Shown here one piece after another: positions 37,588-58,113 of a DNA stretch of 64,000 nucleotides (the stretch's first letter is position 1; each line of letters begins with the position of its first letter). A program made the position numbers and the translations under genes. The notes under the pieces were generated by a model. That model was not told where the DNA came from. It worked only from the letters and a program-made list of their open reading frames with translations, and did not search any database. Source of the DNA: an uncultured Gammaproteobacteria bacterium (GTDB lineage Bacteria > Pseudomonadota > Gammaproteobacteria > PS1 > Pseudothioglobaceae); assembly GCA_902556205.1 (NCBI GenBank), contig CACDVH010000006.1, positions 1 through 64,000 on the forward strand. Reading direction: 5' to 3'.

Positions 37588-38334
37588 CTAGTCCCTTATC
37601 ATCCATATAAGATGAGCCATTCTGCCTGAATTAATTCCATCTCTTCGATACGAAAAAAAATCACTTGAATCTCTATAAGTGCACCTATCGCCTCCAGAAA
37701 TTGACTTAATTTGAAAACCTTCGAGAATCACTTTGGCTGCATCATATAAATCAAGAAAACTTTTATTATTTTTAATTGTAAAAGAACGCTCAAAGTTACT
37801 ATTTTTAGCTAAATAGAGATTCCTAACCTCCTCACCAACTTCAAAGTATCTCTTTGAGATTGCAGGACCAAGATGAACCAATAGATTATCTCCATCCGAA
37901 TTGAAGGATTTGATTAAATTTTCTATAACTCCAGAAATTAAGCCTCTCCAGCCAGCGTGAGCAATTCCAACCATTGACCCATCTTTTTTACTAACAAAAA
38001 CAGGTAAGCAGTCGGCAGTCATTATGGCACAAACAACTCCAGCCTCAGAAGTAAAGCTTGCATCTGCCTCAATAATTGAGACTATAGAAGCGGCATCTAC
38101 GCATTTAGAAGAGTGGACTTGATTAATCCATAGCGGCTTAGAAGGCAAATTATATAAATTTTTAAGAATCTTTCTATTTTCTAAAACTCTATTAGAATTA
38201 TCATTCACATGAAGAGCTAAATTAAAATTTTCAAAGTTATTCGTGCTCTTTCCTCCCTCAGTAAATCGTTGGGTCGAAAGAAGTTTTACATTACTCGGAA
38301 AATGATTCATTTTTGCATTATCAACTAAAATCAT
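37588..38334 (-). CDS. pgeF: Purine nucleoside phosphorylase / laccase-domain protein YfiH
   Basis: Multicopper-polyphenol-oxidase-like (DUF152) family enzyme, 248 residues; such proteins act as purine nucleoside phosphorylases/adenosine deaminases and in peptidoglycan proofreading (PgeF). Metal-site motifs: NQVHSSKCVD, IMTADCLPVFVS and GIAHAGWRGLISG, then VHLGPAIS. Overlaps rluD by 4 bp, the standard rluD-yfiH pairing of gammaproteobacteria. Confidence 0.93.
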   Translation of the reverse strand: MILVDNAKMNHFPSNVKLLSTQRFTEGGKSTNNFENFNLALHVNDNSNRVLENRKILKNLYNLPSKPLWINQVHSSKCVDAASIVSIIEADASFTSEAGVVCAIMTADCLPVFVSKKDGSMVGIAHAGWRGLISGVIENLIKSFNSDGDNLLVHLGPAISKRYFEVGEEVRNLYLAKNSNFERSFTIKNNKSFLDLYDAAKVILEGFQIKSISGGDRCTYRDSSDFFSYRRDGINSGRMAHLIWMIRD

Positions 38335-39272
38335 GAATCAAAACTATTTAATGCATCTATTAGCCCCATCATATCTTCAGGGAGTTCAATTCTCCATGTC
38401 ATTGAAATACCTGTTGTTGGATGCTTTAAGGTTAATTTTTTTGAATGGAGTGCTTGTCTTTGAAAAGCTCTAAGAGCTTTTTTTATTTCATTTCCTGCTT
38501 TTTTTGGAAATCTGACGCGCCCTCCATATAATGGATCTCCAACCAAAGGGTAGCCAATGTGTGAAAGATGAACACGAATTTGGTGGGTTCTTCCAGTTTC
38601 AAGAATAGCCTTTACATGAGTATGGTTCACAAATCGATCTATGACTCTGTAGTGAGTAATCGCAGATTTTCCATTAGCTCTGACTGACTGTTTGACTCTT
38701 TCTTTAGGGTCTCTTCCAATAGGCTCATTCACAGTTCCACCTGAAATCATATGGCCATAAACAATAGCTGAATACTCTCTTTCAACTGAATGAGTCTGAA
38801 GTTGTTCAGCGAGGTACTTTTGTGACTTTAAGTTTTTAGCCACCACCATTAATCCTGAGGTATTTTTGTCTAACCTATGAACTATACCTGCTCTATCCAA
38901 CATTGACAAATCAGAATTGTAGTGAAGAAGTGCATTAGCAAGAGTCCCATTCCAATTTCCTGCTCCAGGATGCGTAACTAGCCCAAAAGGCTTATTAATG
39001 ACTATAACATCTTCATCCTCAAAAACAATGTCTAGTGGAATTCTCTCTCCAACCCATTGATTTCTCTGTATTTCCTTGATTGTCAAGCAAATAACCTCAT
39101 CGCCATTAGATTTATCCTTTGGTTTAAATTTTTGGCCATGAATCAGAGCATCTCCAGACTTAATTAATGAAGAAATCTTGGAGCGAGAGTAGTTTGGCAT
39201 CATAGAGGCTAGAGAGACATCTAGCCTATCACCTTTCATTCGCTCTGGAATTATAATATTAAGTGATTTCAT
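38331..39272 (-). CDS. rluD: 23S rRNA pseudouridine(1911/1915/1917) synthase RluD
   Basis: 313 residues. N-terminal S4 domain (GDRLDVSLASMMPNYSRSKI), catalytic Asp in AGIVHRLDKNTSGLMVVAKN near residue 137, and ETGRTHQIRVHLSHIGYPLV near 240, with DPLYGG. Length and the pgeF neighbour favour RluD over RluC. It sits 20 bp downstream of the sugar cluster, so it may receive read-through from it. Confidence 0.94.
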   Translation of the reverse strand: MKSLNIIIPERMKGDRLDVSLASMMPNYSRSKISSLIKSGDALIHGQKFKPKDKSNGDEVICLTIKEIQRNQWVGERIPLDIVFEDEDVIVINKPFGLVTHPGAGNWNGTLANALLHYNSDLSMLDRAGIVHRLDKNTSGLMVVAKNLKSQKYLAEQLQTHSVEREYSAIVYGHMISGGTVNEPIGRDPKERVKQSVRANGKSAITHYRVIDRFVNHTHVKAILETGRTHQIRVHLSHIGYPLVGDPLYGGRVRFPKKAGNEIKKALRAFQRQALHSKKLTLKHPTTGISMTWRIELPEDMMGLIDALNSFDS

Positions 39273-39292
39273 ATTTACTAACCAAAAAAAAA

Positions 39293-39826
39293 TTAGGACT
39301 TGTAATCGCTCAAGTTGCTATCTTTTTCAGAAATTATAATATCTAAATCAGGGAATTCTTTTTTGAGGTACTTTTTTATGTTAAAGCCTTTATAGTTTTC
39401 TTGAGAATATTTATTATCCATAAAGTACTGCAATAAAACATTATCAGTCAACGATATAAATCCATGGGCAAAACCCTTAGGAATGAATATAGCATCGCCA
39501 GCTGATAGTTCAAAACGAAGCACTTTTTCAGTTTCTTTTTTAGATAAATCAATAGCAAGATCAATAATTGACCCCTGATGAACTGAGATTAACTTATTTT
39601 GAGCAAATGGTTGATCTTGATAATGCATCCCTCTGAATGTATGTTTTTTTTCATTGCAAGAAATCAACTGGTAACTCAAATTAAAATTTAAGCTTGGGAT
39701 ATTTTTAAACATCTTTTGGGCATCGAGTGCACTTAAAAATCCTCGATTATCATTAAAGACATTAAAAACGTTTTTAAATACTATAGGTTTGTTTAATTTC
39801 GTTATACTGGTTCTTGATTTGCTCAT
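39293..39826 (-). CDS. RmlC-like dTDP-4-dehydro-6-deoxysugar 3,5-epimerase
   Basis: 177 residues of the RmlC cupin family. FRGMHYQDQPFAQNKLISV holds the catalytic His; GSIIDLAIDLSK the Asp; FIPKGFAHGFISL a core cupin motif; LQYFMDNKYSQENYKGF the C-terminal Tyr region. The family acts on dTDP-4-keto-6-deoxyhexoses, as 3,5-, 3- or 5-epimerase. Given the 3-dehydratase upstream, a 5-epimerisation of a 3-deoxy intermediate is possible; this is inference. Its start lies 53 bp inside the previous gene, an unusually long overlap, so a later start cannot be excluded. Confidence 0.85.
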   Translation of the reverse strand: MSKSRTSITKLNKPIVFKNVFNVFNDNRGFLSALDAQKMFKNIPSLNFNLSYQLISCNEKKHTFRGMHYQDQPFAQNKLISVHQGSIIDLAIDLSKKETEKVLRFELSAGDAIFIPKGFAHGFISLTDNVLLQYFMDNKYSQENYKGFNIKKYLKKEFPDLDIIISEKDSNLSDYKS

Positions 39827-40616
39827 AAAAATTTTTTTTCAAAGAATTTATATAAATATTTTCTGGAAAAGAATTTATATTATTTAATAAATTATTACCT
39901 TTCATTGTAGCTTTAATTTTAGTGGAAGTTTTCTCAATTGAGATAATGCTTTCTGCTAGCTCTCTTATAGTTAGATGATTATTTGACATTATCATGTATT
40001 GACTTGGAGTCAAACCTATAGAGCTAATTAAAGAATCTGCAACCTCCTCAACATGAGTTAAATTGATGTCAACACTGATTGATGGTATTTGGATATCACG
40101 ATTTGCAATAGAGTTTTTAATAAAGACGTCTAATACTTTACTTCTTTGATCATTTTTTCCAAATGTATCAAACAAAAAAACCTCGGTTACTTCGAACTCT
40201 GACTTTGCCCAACTAACAAATTTATTTTTTGTTTCTGAATATAAACTCTTCTGCTTCAAATCTGGAAGCTGCAAATAAGAAGATGAAGAAATGATTCGCT
40301 TTAAACCAACATTTTTTAAAATATTACAAAGGGATTTAGGAAAATGAAAATTGGACTTTTCCAATAGCTCCTCTTCAGCTAGATTTATAGGGTTTGGATT
40401 GTAGTAGGTTGCAAGGTGCAACAGCAAATCTGAAGGATATTTTTGTAACTCTTCTATACTAAAATCTTTGCATACAGGATCAGCAGAATTCTGATAGATG
40501 GTTATTTTTTTTTCTCTACCAAAATTGACTACTGCATCATAATCATAAATTATTTTTTTTAAAACGTGTTGCCCAATAAAGCCTGTTAGGCCTGTAGTAT
40601 AGATTATTTTAAGCAA
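39774..40616 (-). CDS. NAD(P)-dependent nucleotide-sugar reductase/epimerase (SDR)
   Basis: Extended short-chain dehydrogenase, 280 residues. Rossmann motif TGLTGFIGQHVL at the N-terminus and catalytic YSETK near residue 125 preceded by SSSSY. It sits between the 3-dehydratase (13-bp overlap) and the RmlC-like gene, where a 4-keto reductase (RmlD-, abequose-synthase- or ColC-like) is expected. No gene typical of RmlD is otherwise present. Sugar product unknown. Confidence 0.75.
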   Translation of the reverse strand: MLKIIYTTGLTGFIGQHVLKKIIYDYDAVVNFGREKKITIYQNSADPVCKDFSIEELQKYPSDLLLHLATYYNPNPINLAEEELLEKSNFHFPKSLCNILKNVGLKRIISSSSYLQLPDLKQKSLYSETKNKFVSWAKSEFEVTEVFLFDTFGKNDQRSKVLDVFIKNSIANRDIQIPSISVDINLTHVEEVADSLISSIGLTPSQYMIMSNNHLTIRELAESIISIEKTSTKIKATMKGNNLLNNINSFPENIYINSLKKNFYEQIKNQYNEIKQTYSI

Positions 40617-41797
40617 TTTTCTATTTCAAATAATTTTTCTAGCATGTAGTCCATTTTCTCCTTTGTTTGTCTATTATGACAACCAAGAAGGATGCCAGAC
40701 TCCATAATATTGTCACTTACGTCAAAGCTCCCAAAGGAGTCCCATTCAAATTTTTTAGCTACTGGTTGACGAAGAATATTTCCGGTAAAGATAGTTCTTG
40801 TTTGGATGCCAGATTTTTCGAGATAAATTTGAACCTCCTTCCTCTTTGAAGCTAACTTATTTTGAAGTATTGCTGGGAAAGCTAGCCAGCCAGTCTCAAC
40901 ATTACCATAGGATGAAGGAACAAAAAAATTATCAGAAGATGATAAGTTATTTTTTAGATAATTGTAGTTATCTAACCTATTTTTAAGATTGGCCCCTAAA
41001 CTCTTGACTTGGACTAGCGCAAAAGCTGCTGAGATTTCTGATGGTAGAAAGTTATAAGCAATGTCATCAAAAATATACTTGTCGTCATAGTTTATATTAT
41101 CAATTTTTGCATTGAATCTCCTCTCATAATCTTCCGTTTCTCCATACAGAGAGGACCTTCTACCCCAGCCCCTTAGTGATAAAGCTAAGTCAAAATGTTC
41201 TTTATCAGAAAAACACGTCATCCCTCCAAAGCCTGCTCCTGTTACAACATGGGAAGCATAAAAGCTAGTCGTTGACACATCTGACCAATTATCAATCTCT
41301 GATGAATACTTATACCCTATGGTGTCTGCAGAATCTTCAATAGTCTTTAGATTATTTTCTTTTGCAAAATGATATATCTCCTCCCAGTTAGCAACATTTC
41401 CTATGAGGTTAGGTACGCATATTGCGGACACTCCCTCAAGTGGTATTCTTTTTAAAACTGATGTATCTATTTGCATTGTCTCTCTTTCAACATCAATAAA
41501 TAAGGGTTTTAGGCCACTCTGAACTAGAGGAGATACTGTAGTTGAGAAAGTTAAACTTGGAGTAATTACTTTTGTTCCCTTTTTCAGATTTAGTGCTTGG
41601 ACGCCAATAAGGTTTGCAGAGGAGCCACTATTTGTCATCAAGCCATATTCTTTATTAAAAATATTCGCTACTTTACTTTCCAATCTTTGAACATTTTTTC
41701 CACACATAAGTGCAAGGCGATCATTTCTAAGGACCTCAATAACGGCATTGATTTCTTCTTCTGAATAATTTGCTTCTGCGTAAAAAACTTTCTTCAT
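40604..41797 (-). CDS. PLP/PMP-dependent NDP-4-keto-6-deoxyhexose 3-dehydratase (ColD/RfbH-like)
   Basis: DegT/DnrJ/EryC1-fold protein, 397 residues. The usual PLP-binding lysine is replaced by His183 in SFYASHVVTGAGFGG. That substitution defines the ColD and RfbH/E1 3-dehydratases and is not found in ordinary sugar aminotransferases, which have Lys here. Other fold motifs: LMTNSGSSANLIGV near 53-66, IEDSADTIGYKY, SLRGWGRRS and PSEISAAFALVQ. Length is near ColD (388). I see no cysteine pattern like the C-x57-C-x-C-x7-C iron-sulfur site of RfbH/E1, so a ColD-like mechanism is favoured. It is preceded by a six-codon upstream ORF. Confidence 0.82.
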   Translation of the reverse strand: MKKVFYAEANYSEEEINAVIEVLRNDRLALMCGKNVQRLESKVANIFNKEYGLMTNSGSSANLIGVQALNLKKGTKVITPSLTFSTTVSPLVQSGLKPLFIDVERETMQIDTSVLKRIPLEGVSAICVPNLIGNVANWEEIYHFAKENNLKTIEDSADTIGYKYSSEIDNWSDVSTTSFYASHVVTGAGFGGMTCFSDKEHFDLALSLRGWGRRSSLYGETEDYERRFNAKIDNINYDDKYIFDDIAYNFLPSEISAAFALVQVKSLGANLKNRLDNYNYLKNNLSSSDNFFVPSSYGNVETGWLAFPAILQNKLASKRKEVQIYLEKSGIQTRTIFTGNILRQPVAKKFEWDSFGSFDVSDNIMESGILLGCHNRQTKEKMDYMLEKLFEIENCLK

Positions 41798-41817
41798 TAA
41801 TTGAATTGCAAAGACAT
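41797..41817 (-). CDS. Six-codon upstream ORF coupled to the 3-dehydratase gene
   Basis: On the minus strand AGGAGAAGG sits 4 nt before ATG at 41817. This opens a mini-ORF encoding MSLQFN with a TAA whose last A is the first base of the dehydratase ATG (TAATG, 41799-41795). The dehydratase itself has no good ribosome-binding site. Translation of the mini-ORF should therefore deliver ribosomes by termination-reinitiation. The alternative is that a base has been lost and the long gene once started here; no evidence for that beyond the geometry. Confidence 0.55.
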   Translation of the reverse strand: MSLQFN

Positions 41818-41878
41818 TTTGCCTTCTCCTATATTTTGTTTAAATTCATGAATCATCTATTTAGCCAATAATGTTTAT

Positions 41879-42757
41879 CTATATATTTTTGGCTATATCA
41901 AGAAGATATCGTCCATATTGATTATTACTTGAATGATTTGCTAAAACCTTAAAATTTTCAGCTGAGATAAAACCTTTTTCAAGAGCAACCTCCTCTAAGC
42001 ACGCTACTTTTAATCCCTGTCTTTTCTCAATTGTCTCAATAAATGCTGAGGCATCTAATAAGTTTTCATGAGTTCCGGTATCGAGCCAAGCATAGCCCCG
42101 ACTCATTATTTCTACTTTTAAACGCCCATCATTAAGGTAAAGTTGATTTAATGAGGTAATTTCTAATTCACCCCTTAGAGAAGGCTGAATTAGAATAACC
42201 TTTGAAATAACATCATTTGGGTAAAAATATAACCCAGTTACAGCAAAATTACTTTTAGGGCTAACTGGCTTTTCTTCAATCGATTTCACTAGACCAGTTT
42301 TGTCAAACTCCACAACACCATAATGCTTAGGCTCCTTGACATAATATCCAAAGACCGTTGCTAAATTAGAGTCTTTTGCTAATGATACTGCCTCCTCTAG
42401 AATGCCTGTCATGCCATGACCGTAAAAAATATTATCTCCAAGAATTAAGCAAACATCATCATTTTGGATAAAGTCTTTTCCAAGAATGAAGGCTTGTGCT
42501 ATTCCATCTGGAGAGGGTTGGACTTTATATTGAAATTTCATTCCAATATCAGACCCGTCCCCAAGCAAATCCTCAAATCTTGATAAATCATCGGGTGTTG
42601 ATATTATTAAAACCTCTTGAATTCCCGCAAGCATTAAAATTGACAGGGGATAGTAAATCATTGGCTTATCATAAACAGGCAATAACTGTTTAGAAATGCT
42701 TTTTGTTAATGGATATAGCCTAGTTCCAGAACCACCAGCAAGAATAATGCCTTTCAT
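41879..42757 (-). CDS. rfbA: Glucose-1-phosphate thymidylyltransferase
   Basis: RmlA: glucose-1-phosphate + dTTP to dTDP-glucose. It has 292 residues. Signature [35 protein letters not shown] (broken), [12 protein letters not shown]-like block ([13 protein letters not shown]) and [17 protein letters not shown] near 220. One base after rfbB, so translationally coupled. Product feeds RfbB. Confidence 0.97.
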
Positions 42758-43834
42758 TTATTTACTCTTCCCCAAACGAACAAGTTTATAGTTATCATTT
42801 TGAATGCTTTTTAACCAAGCATGGTTCTTCAAATACCACATTATGGTTTTTCTGATGCCTGATTCAAAATTTTCATTCGGTTTCCACCCAAGACTTTTGT
42901 TGATTTTTGAAGAATCTATGGCATATCTTACATCATGTCCAGGCCTATCTTCAACATAAGTAATTAATTCGCTATAGGAGCTAATTTCCGAATTATTTAT
43001 AGGAAGAAGTTCATCTAAGATTGAGCAAATCTGTTGGACAACCTCAATATTTTTAATCTCATTATTTCCTCCTATATTATATGTTTCGCCAATCTTCCCT
43101 TGAAGTGCAACAATCATTAGCGCACTGACATGATCATCAACATATAGCCAATCCCTAATTTGTTTACCATCACCGTACACTGGAAGTGGCTTTAATGTAA
43201 TTGCAGTTAATATCATGTGTGGTATCAATTTTTCAGGAAATTGATATGGGCCATAATTATTAGAGCAATTTGTAATTAAAACTGGCAAGTTATAAGTTCG
43301 ATGCCAAGCTCTAACTAGGTGATCAGAGCTTGCTTTTGAAGCTGAATAGGGAGAGCTTGGATCATAACGCGTTTCTTCTGAAAAAAAATTATTTGTATTC
43401 TTTAAATCACCATAAACCTCATCAGTTGATACATGTAAAAATCTAAAATTGTCTTTTTTTAAGCCTTTAAGCGACTGATAATATATCCTAACACCCTCTA
43501 AAACATTAAATGTACCAATAACATTAGTTTGAATAAAATCAATTGGTTCATCTATTGATCTATCAACATGGGATTCAGCTGCTAGATGAATAACTAGGTC
43601 AGGCTTACTGTCATTAATTACTCTTTGTAAGTTAATTGAATCACAAATATCTAGCTTTTCAAAAATATAATTCTTTCTATTTTCAATTGACTTTAAAGAC
43701 TCTAGACTCCCTGAATAGGTGAGTTTGTCGATATTAACAACTTTATATTCTGAATTTATAACAAGGCTTCTTATTAAGGCAGAGCCAATAAATCCTGCTC
43801 CGCCAGTTATTAAGATGTTTTTGATACTTTTCAT
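42758..43834 (-). CDS. rfbB: dTDP-glucose 4,6-dehydratase
   Basis: RmlB: dTDP-glucose to dTDP-4-keto-6-deoxyglucose. It has 358 residues. NAD-binding [42 protein letters not shown], catalytic Tyr/Lys in [17 protein letters not shown], and [14 protein letters not shown]. Its product is the common substrate for the downstream 3-dehydratase, reductase and RmlC-like enzyme. 18 bp after the smaller OGT-like gene. Confidence 0.97.
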
Positions 43835-43851
43835 TGCAAATTACTATTAAT

Positions 43852-46272
43852 TTAATTAGGCTCGTTATCTAAATAAATATGGTCAGGCTCTATTCCCTGA
43901 TGGAATTTTTCAAACATAACCTCATAAGCTGACTCTAGATTTTTTGTAAATAAAGGTGAATTAAATAGAGGCGCATTATCTAGATTATTCAATAGTTTTG
44001 ACTTAATGATTTTATATTTTTTTGGATTTGTTGCTAATTCTATAGCTAGGGACTCATATTGTTTTTGAGAATTTGTAATTAGTTCCGGTAAATTAACAGC
44101 ATTTAATAGACTTGAGGCCACCCTACTTGCGAAAGATTTCCCTAGTAAAGTTAATACTGGGAGACCCATTCTTAGAGCATCACTAGTTGTTGTATGCGCA
44201 TTATAAGGGAGAGTGTCCAAAAATAAATCTGCATACTGAATTCGATTTAAATGTTTTTCACTTGAAATATAAGGAGCAAAAACCAAACGATTCTCATCAA
44301 TACCTAGTTTAGTAGCTTCTTTTTTGAGATTTTTAATGGATGTCTCGTTATTGACGAGGAGCCATAAAACACTATTTTCAACCTGAGTAAGGATATTCAT
44401 CCAGCTTTTAAATGTATTAGGCGTAATTTTATAGGCATTATTAAAACAACAGAAAATAAAACCTTTTTCAGGCAAGTCAAGACCTTTTCGATTCAATCTG
44501 ACATCTTCGACATTCTGCTTAGAAGGATTAACTTGATAACTATCCGGCATATAAATTATCTTCTCAGAATAATATTTCTTTTTATTTTCTGGTATTAATA
44601 TTTTATCTGCAACTAGGTAATCCATATAATCTGCATGCATTGAACCAGGATATCCTAAATAGTTAACTTGGATTGGCGCTAAAGACATTGCAAAAACCTT
44701 TGTTCTTGAATTGGCTGTAAAACCCCCTAAGTCAATAGCAATATCAATCTCTAGAGATCTTGATAAATTAACTAGATCGTCATTTGACATTGAAAGCACA
44801 TCATGATAATGGTCAACACCATCTCTTATACGAAGGTTCATTTTATCTTTAGTATCTTTTGTATAAGAGAATGCATGTATTTCAAATCTACTCCTATCGT
44901 GAGTTTCATACAACTGGGCAGTCAAAGTTGTAACTGGATGTGATCTAAAATCTGCAGAAAAATATCCGATCCGAATTTTAGAATGCTTTTGATGAATCTT
45001 AGATTCATACTCAAGAAAATTGCTTTGGAACTGATCCTCAACAAAAATTTCAGCAGCTTTCTTTTGAATAGATAAATCATCTATCAAAGCTTTAAGAGCA
45101 AAGGGACCAATTGCCTTTTGATTTTTATTGATTTTTTTAGATAATTTAAGGATGTTACTATCAAAATCCTCCCAAATACAAAGATGCATTTTAGTATTTA
45201 AGAGGGCACCAAAAAGATAAGCAGTATTTGGCTGGAGACTATAAGCCTTTTCAAAACAAGAAAGTGCTTCAACTCTTTTTCTTCGATTTCTTAGAACATT
45301 CCCAAGATTATTGTATGCATCCGCATAATCTGGATTTAAGGCGATTGCCTTTTCATAACTTTCAACAGAAGCTTTAGTTTTTCCTAATACTCCAAGAACA
45401 GTTCCTAAGTTATTGTATGAAAGAGCATAATCTGGTTTAAATTTAAGAGCGTTTTTATAACAGTTATGAGCATCAACAAATTGCCCAAGATTCATATATA
45501 CCAGTCCAAGATTGTTATGAGCCTCAGCGTAATCTGGCTTTAATTCGATAACTTTTTTAAAGCTATCTTTTGCTTTTAGAAATTGAAAACTTTCTTTATA
45601 CTGAATTCCTAAATTATTATGAGCCTCAATGAAGTCTGGCTTAATCTTTATTGCATCCTTATAAGAGGAAACTGCAAGCTTAATATTGCCGATTTCCTTA
45701 TAAATAACTCCTAAATTATTATGAGTTTCAGCTAAATTAGGCTTCATTGAAATTACTTTTTTATAAGTCTGAATAGCTCTATCTAAATGTCCTAAATCTT
45801 TTAAGGCATTTCCAAGATTAAAATGAGCTTCAGCCACATTAGGGTTTATTGAAATCGCTTTTTCATAGAATTCAACTGCATTTTCATGTTGAGATAATTT
45901 CTGATAGACATTAGCTAAATGATAATTTGCATCAAAATAAGAGGGATTAATAGATATTGCTATCAACAAATTATCAATTGAAGCCTTATTCCTATTAAGA
46001 TTTTCAAGTGTAATCCCTAAATTTTTATATGCTTCAAAGTAATCAGGTTGAATTTTTACCGCATTTTCAAACATTTTGACAGAAGCTACTAAATCTCCAA
46101 TTGCTTTATAACAAGCACCAGCAATATTAAAAATTATTGGAACATTGGGATACGACTTATTAATATTTTGAATCTTTTCAATTGCTTCAACATACCTCCC
46201 CTTTGAATAGAGATCAAACAAAGCATTAATCTTTGACTGAGGTATTTCTATCTTCTTATTACTTTGATTCAC
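43852..46272 (-). CDS. TPR O-GlcNAc-transferase-like glycosyltransferase (GT41), 806 aa
   Basis: Residues about 15-350 form an N-terminal helical module (with SYPNVP and GACYKAIG) and about nine canonical 34-residue TPR units with NNLG and NPDYA boundaries. Residues about 425-790 form a GT41 (SPINDLY/OGT) domain: GYFSADFRSHPVTTL with the conserved His, DIAIDLGGFTANSRT, APIQVNYLGYPGSMHADYMD, FCCFNNAYKITPNTF with the UDP-binding Lys, and LDTLPYNAHTTTSDALRMG with the HTT motif, then SFASRVASSLL. Residues near the ends match the neighbouring 934-aa protein, so they are paralogues. Likely substrate: protein Ser/Thr, with UDP-sugar donor (family knowledge). No signal peptide; cytoplasmic. Confidence 0.9.
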   Translation of the reverse strand: MNQSNKKIEIPQSKINALFDLYSKGRYVEAIEKIQNINKSYPNVPIIFNIAGACYKAIGDLVASVKMFENAVKIQPDYFEAYKNLGITLENLNRNKASIDNLLIAISINPSYFDANYHLANVYQKLSQHENAVEFYEKAISINPNVAEAHFNLGNALKDLGHLDRAIQTYKKVISMKPNLAETHNNLGVIYKEIGNIKLAVSSYKDAIKIKPDFIEAHNNLGIQYKESFQFLKAKDSFKKVIELKPDYAEAHNNLGLVYMNLGQFVDAHNCYKNALKFKPDYALSYNNLGTVLGVLGKTKASVESYEKAIALNPDYADAYNNLGNVLRNRRKRVEALSCFEKAYSLQPNTAYLFGALLNTKMHLCIWEDFDSNILKLSKKINKNQKAIGPFALKALIDDLSIQKKAAEIFVEDQFQSNFLEYESKIHQKHSKIRIGYFSADFRSHPVTTLTAQLYETHDRSRFEIHAFSYTKDTKDKMNLRIRDGVDHYHDVLSMSNDDLVNLSRSLEIDIAIDLGGFTANSRTKVFAMSLAPIQVNYLGYPGSMHADYMDYLVADKILIPENKKKYYSEKIIYMPDSYQVNPSKQNVEDVRLNRKGLDLPEKGFIFCCFNNAYKITPNTFKSWMNILTQVENSVLWLLVNNETSIKNLKKEATKLGIDENRLVFAPYISSEKHLNRIQYADLFLDTLPYNAHTTTSDALRMGLPVLTLLGKSFASRVASSLLNAVNLPELITNSQKQYESLAIELATNPKKYKIIKSKLLNNLDNAPLFNSPLFTKNLESAYEVMFEKFHQGIEPDHIYLDNEPN

Positions 46273-46273
46273 T

Positions 46274-49078
46274 TTATGCTTTTATATAAATATGATCTGG
46301 CTCAAATCCTAACTGATTTTTTTCATATATCTCAGCATAAGATTTCTCGATTTGCATAGTAAAATCTTTTGTATTGAACAAGGGAGCATTTTCTAGATTT
46401 CTTGCTAACTTCTTTTTAATGATATTCATTTTATTTGGATTTGACGCCAAATCCACTGCAACAGATTCATAATCATCTTGGGCATTAGTAATTAATTCGG
46501 GCATATCAACCGCTGTAAGAAGGCTTGCCCCTACTCTGCTAGCGAATGAGTCCCCTGAAAGTGTCAAAACTGGTAGGCCCATTCTTAGTGAGTCACTTGC
46601 AGTAGTGGCTGCATTATATGGGAACGTATCCAAGAATAAATCAACAACAGTATTCCTTTCTAAAAATTCTATCCTGGACAACTTATCCGCAAATATAAGC
46701 CTTTCAGCCTTAACACCTCTTTTTTTCATTTCAGATAACAAATTACTTCTTGATGCATGATTTTCAACAAATATCATCAATAAACTTTCATCAACTTTAG
46801 ATAGAATTCGAGACCAACTATCAAATACACTAGGAGTTATCTTAAAGGTATTATTGAAACAACAAAAAATAAAATTTTTATCGGGGAGTCCATAATCTTT
46901 TCGCTTAATTTGATTTTTAATTTTGGGTTTTATTGAGTCATTGACTTGGAAGCTAGGCAGATAAATAATTTTTTCTGAATAATGTTTTTGATTTTCCTTT
47001 GGGATAATAATTTCATCAGCAATTAGATAGTCATAGTAATCTGTTCCCAATGTTCCTAAATATCCAATATAACTTAATTGGATTGGAGCTGCAGACATAG
47101 CAAATATTTTAGTTCTGCATCCTTCTGTAAATCCACCCAAATCTATTGCAATATCAATTTCCAAAGACCTTGATAAAAGCGCAATATCTTTATCAGAACT
47201 ATCAACCACATCATGATAATAATCAACCCCCTTTCTTATTCGAAGATTCATGTCATCATTTGTATTACGCCCAAAAGAAAACGCATGAACTTCAAATCTT
47301 TTCCGATTATGCATTTCATACAACTGAGCAGTCAAAGTTGTTACTGGATGTGATCTAAAATCTGCAGAAAAATACCCTAATTTAATTCTTTTATGAGCTG
47401 GATAAATTTCAAGTTTTGGAAGAGTATCAAGACGAGGGTAGTTCTTTTCAGCATAAATTTGGGTTATTTTTTTTAGGCGAAGAGGATCATCAGTTAAAGC
47501 CATAAATTCAAAGGGAAGCATTACTAATTCGCTGTTATCAATTTTATTTTTAATTTCATTAGTTCGATCGATAACTTCAGCCCAGGAACATAAAAGCATC
47601 ATTGTATTCAATGTGCTTCCCAAAAGAAAATCTGCATCAGGATTTATAGAAATTGCACTTGCATAACTATTAAGTGCGTCATTAAACTCACCTTTTATCT
47701 TAAAGCATATTCCCAGATTAAGGTGCGCTTCAATCATTAACGGATCTAATGAAATGGCTTTTTTATAAAATTTAATGGAGTTTACTATATCAAACTTATT
47801 AAAATAGACTATGCCTATATTACCCCACGTATAAGCATAATCAGGATTTATTTCTAATGCTTTTTGATAATATTCTAAAGCCTTATCTGATTCACCCAGC
47901 TCAAAAAAAATAACACCAAAGTTATTCAAGCATTCAACATAGTTTGGATTTAACTGAATAGCTTTTTGATAATTATTTAATGCATCATCATATCTCTTAA
48001 TTTCTTTTAGAATGGATCCTAAGTTATTATGTGCTTCAGGAAAAAATTGATTAATTTCAATTGCATTCTCATAAGATCTAATCGCATCATCGACTAAATC
48101 TAACTCTCGTTGAGTATTTCCAAGATTATTGTGTGCATCAAAATTATTGGGATCAATGCTCAATGCTTTTTTGTAGCGACCAGAGGCTTCATCAAATCTA
48201 CCCTGTTCTTTTAGAAGGTTGCCAAGATAATTATGGGTATCTGAATAATCTGGATTAATATCAAGAGACGACTGAAATGTTAAAGTTGCTCTATCAAATT
48301 GTTTCAATTCAGTCAGAACAATACCCAGGTTATTATAATAAACTGGATAAACTGCATCAGAGTTTATTGCTAACTCGTAGCAACTAATTGCTTCTTCAAG
48401 TTTTCCAAGTTCCTTGTATGTATTGCCAAGGTTATTATGAACTTCTGCAAAATTTGGATTAATTTTAATAGCTCTTTTGAAAGCTTCAATGGCATCACTA
48501 AAATTATTTAAGGCTTTTAAAGCAACACCAAGATTATTGAAAGCATTTATAAATTTTGGTTTTAATTTTGTTACTTTTTTAAGACACTCCACCTCCTCAT
48601 GAAATAGACCCAATTCTTGAAAAATTAGACTTAAACTGAATAGCGCTTCAACGTATTCAGGTTTTAAACTTATTGCAGTTTCAAAACTTTTCCTAGCCTC
48701 ATCAAGAAAACTCATTTCCCTCATAAGATTGCCAAGGTTATTATGCGCCTCAGCAAACTTAGAATTAATTTTTAGCGATTTTTTATAGAAGTCCAGTGCA
48801 TCTTCAAACCTATCTAATTGCTCCATTACTCTTGCTATGTTGAAATATGCCTTAAAGTTCTTAGAATCAATAGAAATTGCCTCCTTATATGATTTTATTG
48901 CCTCATCCAATTGTTCAAGCCCCTCAAAACAGGCCCCTTTAATATTTTTTATAATTGGTTCAGATGGGTATATTGTTTCAATATTATTTATTTCGATTAA
49001 AGCTTCTTTAAAGCTATTATTAGAAAATAAATCGATTAGATCATTAATTTCTGATTCAGAGGGATGTTTTGAGGACAT
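46274..49078 (-). CDS. TPR O-GlcNAc-transferase-like glycosyltransferase (GT41), 934 aa
   Basis: Paralogue of the next gene, one base upstream of it in the operon. N-terminal helical module with GACFEGLEQ, then about 13 TPR units to residue about 490. The GT41 domain at about 560-920 has GYFSADFRSHPVTTL, DIAIDLGGFTEGCRTKIFA, APIQLSYIGYLGTLGTDYYD, FCCFNNTFKITPSVF, LDTFPYNAATTASDSLRMG and DSFASRVGASLL. The HTT of the paralogue is ATT here, so one donor-phosphate contact may differ; this could mean altered donor or activity. Four extra TPRs suggest a different or larger acceptor. Confidence 0.9.
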   Translation of the reverse strand: MSSKHPSESEINDLIDLFSNNSFKEALIEINNIETIYPSEPIIKNIKGACFEGLEQLDEAIKSYKEAISIDSKNFKAYFNIARVMEQLDRFEDALDFYKKSLKINSKFAEAHNNLGNLMREMSFLDEARKSFETAISLKPEYVEALFSLSLIFQELGLFHEEVECLKKVTKLKPKFINAFNNLGVALKALNNFSDAIEAFKRAIKINPNFAEVHNNLGNTYKELGKLEEAISCYELAINSDAVYPVYYNNLGIVLTELKQFDRATLTFQSSLDINPDYSDTHNYLGNLLKEQGRFDEASGRYKKALSIDPNNFDAHNNLGNTQRELDLVDDAIRSYENAIEINQFFPEAHNNLGSILKEIKRYDDALNNYQKAIQLNPNYVECLNNFGVIFFELGESDKALEYYQKALEINPDYAYTWGNIGIVYFNKFDIVNSIKFYKKAISLDPLMIEAHLNLGICFKIKGEFNDALNSYASAISINPDADFLLGSTLNTMMLLCSWAEVIDRTNEIKNKIDNSELVMLPFEFMALTDDPLRLKKITQIYAEKNYPRLDTLPKLEIYPAHKRIKLGYFSADFRSHPVTTLTAQLYEMHNRKRFEVHAFSFGRNTNDDMNLRIRKGVDYYHDVVDSSDKDIALLSRSLEIDIAIDLGGFTEGCRTKIFAMSAAPIQLSYIGYLGTLGTDYYDYLIADEIIIPKENQKHYSEKIIYLPSFQVNDSIKPKIKNQIKRKDYGLPDKNFIFCCFNNTFKITPSVFDSWSRILSKVDESLLMIFVENHASRSNLLSEMKKRGVKAERLIFADKLSRIEFLERNTVVDLFLDTFPYNAATTASDSLRMGLPVLTLSGDSFASRVGASLLTAVDMPELITNAQDDYESVAVDLASNPNKMNIIKKKLARNLENAPLFNTKDFTMQIEKSYAEIYEKNQLGFEPDHIYIKA

Positions 49079-49084
49079 ATATAT

Positions 49085-50749
49085 TTAATCTTTATAATAA
49101 TTTAAGCCATTCACCAACGGCTGAAGATAATCTTCATATTTTTTCCATACATCTGAGCTACCTTTGTATATTTTTTGCTTAACTTGAAGAGCGCTGGTAG
49201 TTCTAACAGCTGTTTCATTCTCATAAAATTTTAGACAATTTTCATCCCACTCTAGTTCACAGTACTTTAAAAGGTTTTGAGTCTGCTTCTCCTGGTCATT
49301 TGTTAGATCTTCATAATATAGGTCGAAGATTTTATTTGGAAATAATTGCCGCCAGAAAGCCAAAAGCTTTTTGTATAAGTGATAATAATTTGCTAAATCA
49401 TTTTGATCATAAGAATAACCATTACCATTGAAATAATATTTATATATTGACCAACAAGTTGCCATTGGATCACGATTCATATGGATAATTTTTGCCTCAG
49501 GAAAAGCAGAAATCATAAAACCAATATGCCGAAAATTCAAAGGCATTTTATCAATTACAATTTTTTCATTTACATTCAAGCTATCAATGTATTGCAAATA
49601 TTGATTGCGGACCTTTAATAAATCTTCCTTGATGAATCCTTTAATGGGGTCATAATTCTTTAAAAATGGAACAACAAACTGATTTAATTGATTTAGCTCT
49701 CCAGCTCCATAGACTTTGTCGTGACTACCTATAATCTGATGAACTAAAGAAGTTCCTGAACGAGGCATTCCAACAATAAAAATTGGCTTAACATTAGATG
49801 GTTTAATATCATCTTTGTCTAAAACAATAAGTTTGGAATTGAAAACTTCTCTAATTCTATCAAATAGCTTTATATCCTTATCAATAGCATAATTTAATTC
49901 ATTTTTTCTGAGCCTATTAGCCTCATTTAAATATCTAAATTGCTCATCATGATTATCATGACTTTCATAGATGTGCGCCAAGGCAAAGTTGATTGCTATC
50001 CGATCAATTACATCAAGCTCAGAGTCCAAAAGATAGGATTCCATTTCAGATATTTTAGGATCATTTTTCTTATATTTTTTTGCTCTACTTAAATGAAGAT
50101 GAGCATCACCCCAATTAGGTCTGAGTTTTATAGCTTTTTCAATATTTTTAATAAACTCATCCTTATTGCCAAGATCCTTGAAGACCATAGCAAGATTAAA
50201 ATAAGCCGCTTCATAGTCTGGCTTGATTCTGACTGCTTTTTCAAAAGATTTAATAGCATCTTTGGCCCTACCAAAGTCACTTAATGCGAGTCCAAGATTA
50301 TTATGTGCTTCAGCAAAATCACTCTTGTAAGCCACGGCCCATTCTAGATTTTCAATCGCCTTAATCAAGTCTTTTTTATCATCTTTTAGAATATTTCCCA
50401 AGTTGTTGTATGCATCAGGATAGTTAGGTTGAATCAAAATTGCTTTTTTGTAGCTTTCTATCGATTCATCAATGTTTCCTTTTTCTTTCAATGCAAATCC
50501 AAGATTAAAGAAGGCTTCAGCATAGTTTGGTTTAATTTGAACAGCAGTCTTGAACATTTGGATAGAGCCCTCTAAATGCCCCACCTCCCTATAACATGCC
50601 CCAATTAAATTAAACAGCAATGGAACATTTGGATATGATTGATTTAAAGCTTTTATTTGACCTATAGCTTCTTCAAATTTACCCTGAGTATAAAGAGACA
50701 TAACATAATCAATTTGCTTACGGGATAAAACAGGATTTTCATTTTTCAT
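49085..50749 (-). CDS. TPR sulfotransferase (Sulfotransfer_3 type)
   Basis: About 554 residues. N-terminal helical module with SYPNVP and GACYREVG, five to six TPRs to about residue 235, a linker starting KKYKKNDPKI, then a PAPS-dependent sulfotransferase domain. The 5'-phosphosulfate loop is IFIVGMPRSGTSLVHQI near residue 325 and the 3'-phosphate region IIHMNRDPMATCWS near 425. The C-terminal YKGSSDVWKKYEDYLQPLV resembles tyrosylprotein-sulfotransferase-like bacterial proteins. The ATG at 50749 is preferred over TTG at 50776 because it aligns with the start of the adjacent OGT-like protein. First gene of the long minus-strand run and 7 bp from the 934-aa OGT. Confidence 0.87.
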   Translation of the reverse strand: MKNENPVLSRKQIDYVMSLYTQGKFEEAIGQIKALNQSYPNVPLLFNLIGACYREVGHLEGSIQMFKTAVQIKPNYAEAFFNLGFALKEKGNIDESIESYKKAILIQPNYPDAYNNLGNILKDDKKDLIKAIENLEWAVAYKSDFAEAHNNLGLALSDFGRAKDAIKSFEKAVRIKPDYEAAYFNLAMVFKDLGNKDEFIKNIEKAIKLRPNWGDAHLHLSRAKKYKKNDPKISEMESYLLDSELDVIDRIAINFALAHIYESHDNHDEQFRYLNEANRLRKNELNYAIDKDIKLFDRIREVFNSKLIVLDKDDIKPSNVKPIFIVGMPRSGTSLVHQIIGSHDKVYGAGELNQLNQFVVPFLKNYDPIKGFIKEDLLKVRNQYLQYIDSLNVNEKIVIDKMPLNFRHIGFMISAFPEAKIIHMNRDPMATCWSIYKYYFNGNGYSYDQNDLANYYHLYKKLLAFWRQLFPNKIFDLYYEDLTNDQEKQTQNLLKYCELEWDENCLKFYENETAVRTTSALQVKQKIYKGSSDVWKKYEDYLQPLVNGLNYYKD

Positions 50750-50904
50750 TAAAGCTTTTCCATTTTTATCAAACAAACCAAAATGTCATAATTTGTGCAG
50801 AAATACTCTAGGTATGGGTCTACAAATTTTGGTGCATACAATTAATTTTAAACTAGGTTATTTTATATTCCATAGTATTTTTATTTTTAATAACATTCAA
50901 TATA

Positions 50905-51002
50905 TGAATGATATTATTTAGCAAAGCTTTATTTATATAATTGAGGTTTTTCGAATAAAATATTAATAAAGTATTCAAAATACTATACTGTGAATGATAT
51001 TA
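50905..51002. promoter_or_regulatory. Repeats in the divergent TPR-sulfotransferase promoter region
   Basis: The 267-bp AT-rich region between the two divergent TPR-sulfotransferase genes holds a 12-bp direct repeat TGAATGATATTA at 50905-50916 and 50991-51002. A palindrome AGTATT-CAA-AATACT lies at 50970-50984, with a TATACT -10-like box overlapping its right edge (50984-50989). These are candidate regulator sites controlling both directions. No gene is seen in the gap. Confidence 0.4.
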
Positions 51003-51016
51003 AATAATTTATTACG

Positions 51017-52825
51017 ATGTCTCTAAAAATTGAGCGCTATCTTTCTCGCGCAAATAAACTTTCTAAAAAGGGGGAACTAGAAAAAGCAAAAGAAATTTAC
51101 TCTTCTGTTCTTAAAATATCTCCAGACAACAAAGTAGCAAAAAAACAACTACTTTCCTTAGAACAAAATCATGCCTCAAATCCTGAAAAAGCTCAATTAG
51201 AAGAAGCAATGAGGCTATACAAATTAGGCCAATTAGATGAAGCATTAAATGCTGTAAATGAATTGATACAAAATCATCCTAGCGAGCCAATATTGTTTAA
51301 TATTAGGGGTGCCTGTTATAGTGTGCTTGGACCAACTGATCATGCAATAGAGGATTTCAAAAAAGCAATATCTCTTAATCAAAGCTATGCTGAAGCGCAT
51401 TACAATCTGGGTGTCGTATTTCAAAAAATTGACCAAAATGATAATGCATATGATTGCTATGAAAATGCATTGAAATTAAATCATGCATATCCTCAAGCGC
51501 ATAACAACATAGGAATGATAAGCCTAAAAAAACGAGAACTTAATTCTGCGGTTAAAAGCTTTGAATGGGCAGTAGCCTACAACCCTAACTATGTTGAAGC
51601 ACATAATAATCTAGGAGCAGTATTCCAAGAGCTTATGCTCTTCGAAAAGGCAAAAGAACAATATGAGAAAGCATTATCAATCAATCCAAGATTTGCTCAA
51701 GCTCTAAACAACTTAGGCGCAACATGTGAAATTTTTGGACTTAAAGATCAGGCAGTAGAGAACTATAACAATGCTATTAATGAGGATCCAGGTTATTCTG
51801 AAGCTCATAGAAACTTAAGTGCTATTAAAAAATTTAAGAAAAATGATCCTCAAATACATCAATTAGAATCACTTTATTCAAATATCAATTTAACTAAACC
51901 AGATAAAAAAAATCTGAGTTTTGCATTGGCTAAAGTATACGAAGATTTAGGAGAAAATGAAAAGTTTTTCAAATTCTTAAATGAAGGTAATAATTTAAGA
52001 AAACAAGAATTAAATTACACATTTGCATCAAGTAAAAATTTTCATTTAAGCATGTTAAAAGCATTTAAGTCTCCTCCAAAAATAATTACACAAAATACTA
52101 ATAATAAATCAACCATTCGACCTATATTTATAGTTGGGATGCCAAGATCTGGAACCACCCTAGTAGAACAAATTATTTCTAGTCATCATGAAGTCTATGG
52201 TGCCGGTGAGCTAAATAACTTAAAAAAATTTGCTACCCCAATATTTCTTGAGCATGCAAATTCTAATAAAAAGATTATCAATGAAGAGGATATCCTGTCT
52301 CTAAGGAATAGCTATTTGGATTCACTCTTAGAGCTAAATTTTCAAGAAAAGATAGTGACAGATAAGATGCCAATCAATTTTAGGCTAATTGGTTTTATTC
52401 TATCCGCTATTCCAGAAGCAAAGATTATCCATGTTAAAAGAGATGCCAGAGCCACTTGCTGGTCAAACTATAAACATTATTTCAGCTCTGGCAATGGATT
52501 TACTTTTGATATGGAAGATTTATACAAATTCTATGGCCTTTACATTGAAATTATGGATTTTTGGCATAAATTATTCCCGAATAAAATTTATGATTTGGAT
52601 TATGAAAAATTAACAGAAAATCAAAAAATAGAAACAGAAAAACTTCTGAAATATTGTGAATTAGACTGGGATAAAAAATGTCTAGAATTTCATAAAAATG
52701 ATCGTGGAATTAAGACTGCGAGTGCATCACAAGTTAGGCAAACAATGTACCAAGGTAGCTCAGAAGCTTGGAAACAATTCAAGCCTTATATAAAGAACCT
52801 TATTGATGGTCTGAAATCTTACTAA
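51017..52825 (+). CDS. TPR sulfotransferase (Sulfotransfer_3 type), divergent paralogue
   Basis: 602 residues. An extra N-terminal TPR-like hairpin (residues 1-50: RANKLSKKGELEKAKEIYSS) precedes the module with NHPSEP and GACYSVLG shared with the minus-strand proteins. Six TPRs follow, then the linker KKFKKNDPQI and the sulfotransferase domain: IFIVGMPRSGTTLVEQI near residue 375, IIHVKRDARATCWSNYKHYF near 470, and C-terminal YQGSSEAWKQFKPYIKNLI. It is clearly paralogous to the 49.1-50.7 kb gene. Probably transfers sulfate from PAPS to a protein or sugar hydroxyl. No signal peptide. Confidence 0.88.
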   Translation: MSLKIERYLSRANKLSKKGELEKAKEIYSSVLKISPDNKVAKKQLLSLEQNHASNPEKAQLEEAMRLYKLGQLDEALNAVNELIQNHPSEPILFNIRGACYSVLGPTDHAIEDFKKAISLNQSYAEAHYNLGVVFQKIDQNDNAYDCYENALKLNHAYPQAHNNIGMISLKKRELNSAVKSFEWAVAYNPNYVEAHNNLGAVFQELMLFEKAKEQYEKALSINPRFAQALNNLGATCEIFGLKDQAVENYNNAINEDPGYSEAHRNLSAIKKFKKNDPQIHQLESLYSNINLTKPDKKNLSFALAKVYEDLGENEKFFKFLNEGNNLRKQELNYTFASSKNFHLSMLKAFKSPPKIITQNTNNKSTIRPIFIVGMPRSGTTLVEQIISSHHEVYGAGELNNLKKFATPIFLEHANSNKKIINEEDILSLRNSYLDSLLELNFQEKIVTDKMPINFRLIGFILSAIPEAKIIHVKRDARATCWSNYKHYFSSGNGFTFDMEDLYKFYGLYIEIMDFWHKLFPNKIYDLDYEKLTENQKIETEKLLKYCELDWDKKCLEFHKNDRGIKTASASQVRQTMYQGSSEAWKQFKPYIKNLIDGLKSY

Positions 52826-56038: not shown

Positions 56039-56926
56039 TTAAACCTTTAAGAGTTTGGCCATTGTTGCCCCCATATCTGAAGGTGTTGGTGACACAAGTA
56101 TTCCAGCATCCTGAAGTATTTCAACCTTCTCAGCAGCACTCTCACCACTCGTGCTAACAATTGCTCCCGCATGACCCATTAGTCTTCCTGGTGGTGCAGT
56201 CAAACCAGCAATATAGGCTGACATCGGTTTAGTCATATGTTTTTGGAAATACTCTGCAGCTTCCGCTTCCTGTGGACCCCCAATCTCACCAATAATCAAT
56301 ACTGCTTCAGTTTCATCATCTTGCTCAAAATGCTTTAAGATTTCCACAAATGAACTTCCATTAATAGGGTCACCGCCGATTCCTACACCGGTACTAATAC
56401 CGATGCCTAGTTCTTTCATTTGAGAAGCTGCTTCATAACCTAGAGTGCCTGAGCGTCCTATCAATCCTACGTTACCTTGTTTATAGATATGGCCAGGCAT
56501 AATGCCTAACATAGCCTTACCTGGACTAATTGTTCCTGCGCAATTAGGGCCCGTTAAAATCATACGGTTTTCAGGCTTAGCGCGTGCAAAAAGGTATCGC
56601 TTCACTCGAATCATATCATGCGTTGGTATTCCGTCAGTAATGCTCACACAATATTTAATGCCGCCTTCAGCTGCCTCCATAATTCCATCTGCAGCATACG
56701 CAGGAGGTACAAAGATGATGCTAGCTTCAGCACCCGTTGATGCAACAGCCTCTTTGACTGTGTTGAATACTGGCCTTCCTAGATGCGTTGTACCTCCCTT
56801 GCCAGGGGTAACTCCAGCAACGACGTTAGTACCATAATCAATCATCTCTTGAGCATGAAATGAACCCATGCGACCAGTTAGCCCCTGAATTAAAACTGGA
56901 GTTTTCTCATTAATAAATATACTCAT
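56039..56926 (-). CDS. mtkB: Malate--CoA ligase subunit alpha (SucD-like)
   Basis: 295 residues with an N-terminal CoA-binding Rossmann domain (LIQGLTGRMGSFHAQEM; GGVTPGKGG-like AGVTPGKGGTTHLG; VFNTVKEAV) and a C-terminal ligase domain with the phospho-His in LMGHAGAIVSTSGESAAEK near residue 250. It resembles succinyl-CoA synthetase alpha; the wording (GNVGLIGRSGTLGYEA, GIGGDPINGSSF) and linkage to malyl-CoA lyase point to malate-CoA ligase: malate + CoA + ATP to malyl-CoA. True sucCD specificity cannot be excluded from sequence alone. Confidence 0.82.
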   Translation of the reverse strand: MSIFINEKTPVLIQGLTGRMGSFHAQEMIDYGTNVVAGVTPGKGGTTHLGRPVFNTVKEAVASTGAEASIIFVPPAYAADGIMEAAEGGIKYCVSITDGIPTHDMIRVKRYLFARAKPENRMILTGPNCAGTISPGKAMLGIMPGHIYKQGNVGLIGRSGTLGYEAASQMKELGIGISTGVGIGGDPINGSSFVEILKHFEQDDETEAVLIIGEIGGPQEAEAAEYFQKHMTKPMSAYIAGLTAPPGRLMGHAGAIVSTSGESAAEKVEILQDAGILVSPTPSDMGATMAKLLKV

Positions 56927-56935
56927 TTCTTCACC

Positions 56936-58111: not shown

Positions 58112-58113
58112 AA

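Follow-up and report, generated by a model that had tools for sequence, protein, structure and literature searches.

A variable island in a relative of 'Candidatus Thioglobus singularis' carrying paired TPR-GT41 and TPR-sulfotransferase genes with a dTDP-sugar cassette: a possible modular system for marking proteins

Genes of the island

The island described here lies in a 64,000-nucleotide stretch of contig CACDVH010000006.1 (assembly GCA_902556205.1; the whole stretch is called 'the window' below) from a gammaproteobacterial genome of 1.65 Mb in 32 contigs, a relative of 'Candidatus Thioglobus singularis' (handle G000; other genomes are cited likewise). It combines two kinds of enzyme built on tetratricopeptide repeat (TPR) arms, namely two TPR + GT41 glycosyltransferases (OGT-A and OGT-B) and two TPR + Sulfotransfer_3 proteins (ST1 and ST2; 'ST' denotes any such protein), with genes for a dTDP-linked sugar. 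On the minus strand the run comprises ST1 (49085-50776, TTG start as called, its head predicted to have the fold of the tyrosylprotein sulfotransferases, TPSTs), OGT-A (46274-49078), OGT-B (43852-46272, GTG start), rmlB for dTDP-glucose 4,6-dehydratase (42758-43834), rmlA for glucose-1-phosphate thymidylyltransferase (41879-42757, over the TIGR01207 cut-off), a DegT-family 3-dehydratase resembling ColD and E1 (40604-41797), a short-chain dehydrogenase/reductase (SDR) of the Epimerase family, presumed to be a 4-ketoreductase (39774-40616, TTG start as called), and an RmlC-like epimerase (39293-39826). The genes are tightly spaced, with gaps of 6, 1, 17, 0 and 81 bp followed by overlaps of 13 and 53 bp, as taken from the coordinates. 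ST2 (51017-52825, plus strand; PF13469, E 7.5e-39) diverges from ST1 across a 240 bp intergenic region (50777-51016), and promoter-like matches in 50600-51150 were at chance level (5 found against 4.4 expected). The initial annotation had described a close-packed minus-strand run with a divergent paralogous sulfotransferase, and each gene that it named is an intact open reading frame of the family claimed.

Sulfotransferase heads

The head of ST1 could be modelled well (pLDDT 92.2), and the top 13 PDB matches of the model in Foldseek are all tyrosylprotein sulfotransferases (TMq 0.77-0.86), with other bacterial sulfotransferases, SULTs and heparan sulfotransferases further down the list; profile comparison agrees. 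A P-loop PRSG, Glu31, Lys81, Arg106 and Ser114 are invariant in all 32 ST heads compared, and Glu31 is presumably the equivalent of the TPST general base. The heads thus show the P-loop for 3'-phosphoadenosine 5'-phosphosulfate (PAPS), the Arg and Ser for its 3'-phosphate and, as modelled, the TPST fold that characterize Sulfotransfer_3/TPST enzymes, and on the strength of this fold and these residues they are putative protein-tyrosine sulfotransferases. The window STs resemble TPST1/2 in fold, P-loop and the conserved Glu, Lys, Arg and Ser, but they are TPR fusions with 16-23% identity to TPSTs in the Foldseek alignments, whereas TPSTs are not known to carry TPR arms and act in the Golgi.

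GT41 heads and their donor pocket

Both OGT-A and OGT-B exceed the GT41 (Glyco_transf_41) cut-off and keep the equivalents of the catalytic His498 and the phosphate-binding Lys842 (human OGT numbering; pocket residues were taken from an alignment to human OGT and SPINDLY). The pocket reads I653/L656/F901/R904/Y917/A920 in OGT-A and L653/P656/H901/R904/Y917/H920 in OGT-B; Arg904 is kept and Tyr stands at 917 in both enzymes, as does Val500 (SPINDLY V497), and Ile653 of OGT-A matches SPINDLY I592. According to the structural reports, Arg904 of human OGT reads O4 of uridine (PMC10027727), Y744 of SPINDLY, at OGT position 917, holds fucose and disfavours an N-acetyl group, and V497 and I592 of SPINDLY form a methyl pocket (PMC10027727, PMC9715652). 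With Tyr917, neither window enzyme has the Cys or other small residue that at this position of O-GlcNAc transferases admits the N-acetyl group, and the SPINDLY guanine readers Lys689 and Ala731 are replaced by Phe (OGT-A) or Leu (OGT-B) and by Arg, respectively. Because the uridine-reading Arg of OGT is here joined to the sugar-gate Tyr of SPINDLY, we read the pocket as one suited to a dTDP-deoxyhexose.

The window enzymes share with the protein O-fucosyltransferase SPINDLY the TPR-GT41 architecture, the sugar-gate Tyr and, by prediction, a 6-deoxyhexose as the sugar, and they differ in keeping OGT's pyrimidine-reading Arg904 where SPINDLY reads the guanine of GDP through K689/A731 (PMC10027727, PMC9715652). 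Among solved structures, the OGT-B head is closest to animal OGTs and then to XcOGT, with which it shares His498 and Lys842; in contrast to human OGT, the window enzymes have Tyr for Cys917, no long animal insertion between the head halves, and adjacent dTDP genes. The set Ile653, Leu656, Tyr/Phe901 and Gly/Ala920 occurs in OGT-A and in GT41s of five other genomes (G007, G015, G020, G021 and G022); all six genomes have rmlB, whereas G008 and G018, which have no rmlB, do not show the set; the GT41 of G025, a genome lacking rmlB, has Tyr901 and Gly920 but Leu653 and Gln904.

The dTDP-sugar cassette

The window rmlB is the only match at E<=1e-60 in its genome, and within the genus rmlB is found in 6 of the 10 genomes with GT41 and in 2 of the 19 without it. 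Five genomes of the genus carry rmlA-rmlB in one run with GT41, and the partner genes differ: rmlC and rmlD, both over their cut-offs and thus of the rhamnose type, in G007 and G021; a ColD/E1-like dehydratase, an SDR and an RmlC-like gene in G000 and G020, whose dehydratases are 90% identical; and a Lys-bearing DegT enzyme of the transaminase type in G015. A further genome, G022, has rmlB and rmlD at another site. By species, the cassette is of a rhamnose, a 3,6-dideoxy or an amino-sugar type, or is missing. That different dTDP pathways stand beside GT41 points to a dTDP sugar as the donor.

ColD and E1 (CDP-4-keto-6-deoxyglucose 3-dehydrase) are the nearest solved relatives of the window DegT enzyme, and five residues after the Ser of its SF motif there is a His and no Lys, in agreement with the His-for-Lys substitution first annotated; alignments differ by one residue as to whether this His or the preceding Ser occupies the catalytic His position. 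The enzyme resembles the ColD/E1 3-dehydratases in its DegT fold, the missing PLP lysine and a His near the catalytic place, but differs in its dTDP context, ColD and E1 using GDP or CDP sugars, and in having no Cys cluster like that of the E1 used in the alignment. The earlier idea of a 3,6-dideoxyhexose fits such a dehydratase. By family cut-offs the window shows no dTDP-L-rhamnose pathway: the RmlC-like protein scores 84 bits against an rmlC equivalog cut-off of 155.75 (no search was made for another rmlC in the genome), and the best RmlD-like match of the genome, on another contig, reaches 183.4 against 224.05 bits. A comparison of the window SDR with solved structures gave no relative at E<=0.01.

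Exchange of TPR arms between the two enzyme families

Within the genus, the GT41 and ST families exchange some of their TPR arms. In G007, a complete genome of the same genus (1,714,148 bases) that we infer to be 'Ca. T. singularis' PS1 (PMC4616169), the heads of three GT41s are 92-96% identical in DNA and their TPR arms 57-60%; the corresponding values for the two window GT41s are 64.5% and 53%. In G018, one ST and one GT41 have identical first 356 residues, lying within a perfect 1084-nt repeat, and a further GT41/ST pair agrees exactly in its first 80 residues through another perfect repeat, of 1630 nt. Independently of G018, the TPR DNA of a GT41 in G025 and an ST in G031 is 84% identical over 516 nt, and the two contigs also share a 2.2 kb stretch, 78% identical, some 9-13 kb away. 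These two loci (L080 and L088) mark a second variable site with a shared flank and cysC present, where in G025 the GT41 lies beside polysaccharide-lyase and FG-GAP-repeat genes and in G031 the ST with the similar TPR is found.

A tree of the N-terminal TPR caps, covering 38 of 44 proteins (six with an unmatched cap pattern were dropped), needs 8 changes of the GT41 label, at least 6 of them on starred branches. The window OGT-B and ST1 caps fall in one mixed clade (99/92), the ST2 cap groups with other STs, and the OGT-A cap with GT41s and a G018 pair. Also in the clade of OGT-B and ST1 are TPR-only proteins of about 230 aa encoded near islands (L070 15962-16663, L071 6672-7376, L079 7938-8627, L085 14469-15158), which are possible adaptors or regulators. 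Such exchange bears more directly on the sharing of acceptors than co-localisation does, and may mean that a cell directs both enzymes to one acceptor.

Co-occurrence of GT41, sulfotransferase and APS kinase

A single genus holds all 10 of the genomes with GT41 (PF13844) among the 83 of the family; Sulfotransfer_3 matches are found in 20 of the 83. In the 29 genomes of that genus, with thresholds of our choosing (ST E < 1e-30, cysC E < 1e-20), GT41 is present in 10, a strong ST in 15 and GT41 without ST in none (Fisher p = 1.5e-4; this and the Fisher tests below ignore the relatedness of genomes), and restricting the count to the 14 genomes with a completeness of 85% or more leaves ST in 5 of 5 with GT41 versus 1 of 9 without. 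The association extends to a class-wide sample of 369 Gammaproteobacteria, where Sulfotransfer_3 was found in 164, many in frames of more than 500 residues (not tested there for TPRs), and in 56 of 83 GT41 genomes against 108 of 286 others (p = 1.5e-6). GT41 and ST lie within ~5 kb in at least eight sampled genomes (G164, G165, G237, G286, G317, G376, G391 and G405) from seven other gammaproteobacterial families; this linkage, and the presence of an ST in every GT41 genome of the genus, support the pairing proposed initially.

Candidate PAPS supply follows the STs. APS kinase (cysC) is encoded in 12 of 15 ST genomes of the genus against 3 of 14 without ST (p = 0.002), and in 7 of the 15 lies within ~1 kb of an ST gene (G008, G016, G022, G023, G025, G027 and G031), which backs the assumption that these sulfotransferases use PAPS. 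Between cysC and ST, G016 has a cysQ-type gene over the CysQ cut-off, and G022 a gene of the inositol-phosphatase family that we take for CysQ; these genes would clear 3'-phosphoadenosine 5'-phosphate. The strong cysC of the window's genome, on contig 1 (L147 7382-8392), encodes an APS kinase fused to an EF-Tu-type C-terminal domain and is near glycine-cleavage T and H genes, and a second, weaker cysC is on a third contig. G007 has a like fusion (L149 6108-7118), and both look as if CysNC had lost its GTPase part.

Beyond the genus, a scan of contigs with a profile of the GT41 head gave 78 loci among the matches listed (L150-L152 being of this genus, and many cut by contig ends); the near relatives among them, from Betaproteobacteria, Chlorobi and other groups, mostly lack partner genes. 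ST was present in 2 of these 78 (L151, of this genus, and L203) and rmlB in one (L151); in L184, rmlA, rmlC and a partial rmlD lie at a distance of ~8 kb or more from GT41. Given this rarity of partners in the listed loci, the sugar cassette seems, among near GT41 relatives, to be peculiar to this genus.

Position of the island and its flanks

The range of the initial annotation, from 37588, took in a Cu-oxidase_4 gene (37588-38334, minus strand; presumably pgeF/yfiH) and an RNA pseudouridylate synthase gene (38331-39272, minus strand; which we take to be rluD) that are conserved flank in relatives and lie outside the system. These two and a Fapy-DNA-glycosylase gene bound the island on one side, and a group of luciferase-like, GST, SnoaL, hydrolase and CoA-ligase genes bounds it on the other; the same frame is seen again in relatives, with varying gene content between the flanks. 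Adjoining the island at 56039-59067 are a CoA-ligase pair and an HpcH/HpaI lyase, presumably a serine-cycle-like arrangement of malate thiokinase and malyl-CoA lyase. ST genes also occupy another site, between homologues of the genes at window 14528 and 14575 in G015, G020 and G022, and beside the homologue of 14528 in G016, where the contig ends. A phage origin was considered and rejected: in phage records OGT-A had no match and the ST head one weak match.

A possible mechanism

We tentatively propose, giving it close to an even chance, that the island's products form a modular system in the cytoplasm by which proteins receive a deoxyhexose and a sulfate. The N-terminal TPR superhelices would grip particular acceptor proteins, much as the TPR domain of FlmG of Caulobacter can choose the acceptor (PMC7591256). 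The GT41 heads would transfer a sugar to acceptor Ser/Thr, and the TPST-like heads would place a sulfate taken from PAPS on a hydroxyl in that acceptor class, either on a protein side chain, perhaps Tyr, or on the newly added sugar. The donor of OGT-A in the window would probably be a dTDP-3,6-dideoxyhexose: RmlA and RmlB would yield dTDP-4-keto-6-deoxyglucose, from which the ColD-like enzyme would remove the 3-OH, and the RmlC-like epimerase and the SDR would complete the sugar. The modified product is presumably exported. Donor sugar, acceptor class, order of steps and export are all predictions. A bolder, combinatorial version, possible but more doubtful, is that one pool of TPR readers is recombined onto GT41 heads for dTDP-6-deoxyhexoses or onto TPST-like heads, so that one acceptor may gain either or both marks and lineages may re-tune acceptor, sugar and charge by module swaps.

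Each component family is already known. We know of no dTDP-6-deoxyhexose as a donor class of GT41. Among the matches listed in the open-licence literature, as far as titles and abstract openings go, there was no paired TPR-GT41/TPR-ST system, no GT41 with a dTDP donor or with a pocket suited to a dTDP-deoxyhexose, and no exchange of arms between glycosyltransferases and sulfotransferases, which is not proof of absence.

Several observations weigh against this proposal. The G018 repeats come from a draft genome made by a method not known to us and could reflect assembly or strain mixture, and two of the mixed cap pairs come from G018 alone. Labels on the cap tree are more clustered than shuffled ones (11 changes, where 200 shufflings gave a mean of 15.9 and never so few), which means that arms are exchanged but not freely mixed. 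G018 aside, TPRs of GT41-ST pairs from the same genome are no more alike than those from different genomes (23 versus 181 pairs, p = 0.77; one G027 sulfotransferase was counted as TPR-only and another sulfotransferase left out), and we reject TPR matching within each genome as a general rule. The OGT-A-type pocket of the genus forms one clade on the tree and so represents one event, not six, and in G023 (76% complete, with broken genes) the readable part of this set occurs with rmlB not detected. The Y901/G920 pair and similar pockets also occur elsewhere without dTDP genes nearby; common there and confined to one clade here, the pair is weakened as a simple marker of dTDP use. The OGT-A head model (pLDDT 67) was too poor to use, cysC was not detected in three ST genomes (G010, G019 and G020), and none of the island genes could be recognised as that of an acceptor. 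The initial annotation had treated the four TPR genes and the sugar genes as one set. This holds for GT41, never found without ST in the genus, and fails in part for the rest: ST stands without GT41 in 5 of 15 ST genomes or at other sites, and no rmlB was found in G008 and G018 despite their GT41 and ST.

Other readings of the island

The same exceptions would suit two independent TPR enzyme families that have gathered at one variable site and act on different targets, their TPR exchange being ordinary repeat recombination, and such independence would also account for same-genome TPRs that are unmatched on average and for caps partly sorted by enzyme type. We consider it unlikely, though a serious contender: it sits poorly with a GT41 that in the genus occurs 10 times out of 10 with ST, with the linkage in seven other families, with well-supported cap clades that mix both enzymes, and with the slightly higher same-genome GT41-ST TPR scores in other Gammaproteobacteria (22 pairs, p = 0.025, composition not controlled). 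Rather improbable, in our judgement, is a surface-polysaccharide island, in which the dTDP sugar would go to lipopolysaccharide or capsule, the STs would sulfate that polysaccharide and the GT41s would be ordinary glycosyltransferases of the pathway. Polysaccharide clusters commonly hold dTDP-sugar and sulfotransferase genes, the site is variable between species, and of the eight genomes of the genus that have rmlB, three (G010, G016 and G022) carry it on a contig other than that of the island. However, the island genes (39293-52825) include no flippase, polymerase or glycosyltransferase of another family, the closest relatives of both heads are protein-modifying enzymes (OGT/SPINDLY and TPST), and TPR arms are typical of protein recognition.

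The flagellar acceptor first suggested fares worst. Flagellin (PF00669) was found in 0 of 29 genomes of the genus, including the single-contig, 99% complete G007 and G008, which refutes flagellin glycosylation and sulfation for the genus unless its flagellin is too distant for PF00669; we regard this reading as very improbable. It has a precedent in FlmG of Caulobacter, whose TPR domain can choose the acceptor and which resembles the window enzymes as a soluble protein with an N-terminal acceptor-binding TPR and a C-terminal GT-B head that performs cytoplasmic O-glycosylation, but depends on pseudaminic acid and modifies flagellins (PMC7591256). The island differs in having no flagellin, a dTDP cassette, and accompanying sulfotransferases with which TPR arms are exchanged. 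Outside the genus, G376:C25 (L144, 535-19557) has two flagellin genes, FliD and a FleQ-type regulator enclosed by three GT41s and a TPR-ST, and two GT41s lie beside flagellin and FliD in G137:C7 (L146, 4626-13418); these loci are likely FlmG-like flagellin modification systems, with sulfation added in G376. Elsewhere, small exported-looking proteins encoded near GT41/ST genes in G164 (L137 14106-15847) and G317 (L138 7068-7655) are possible acceptors, and the two that were scanned (L137 14106-14969 and L138 7068-7655) contain no Pfam family.

Implications

If the proposed deoxyhexose and sulfate marking of proteins is right, these bacteria would have a soluble system whose parts for choosing the acceptor and for the chemistry are distinct and interchangeable, and a natural toolkit for protein sulfation and deoxyhexosylation. 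It would also provide a testable explanation for Sulfotransfer_3 genes being found so often in one genome with GT41, and in some cases at one locus. The cultured 'Ca. T. singularis' PS1 carries the rhamnose version.

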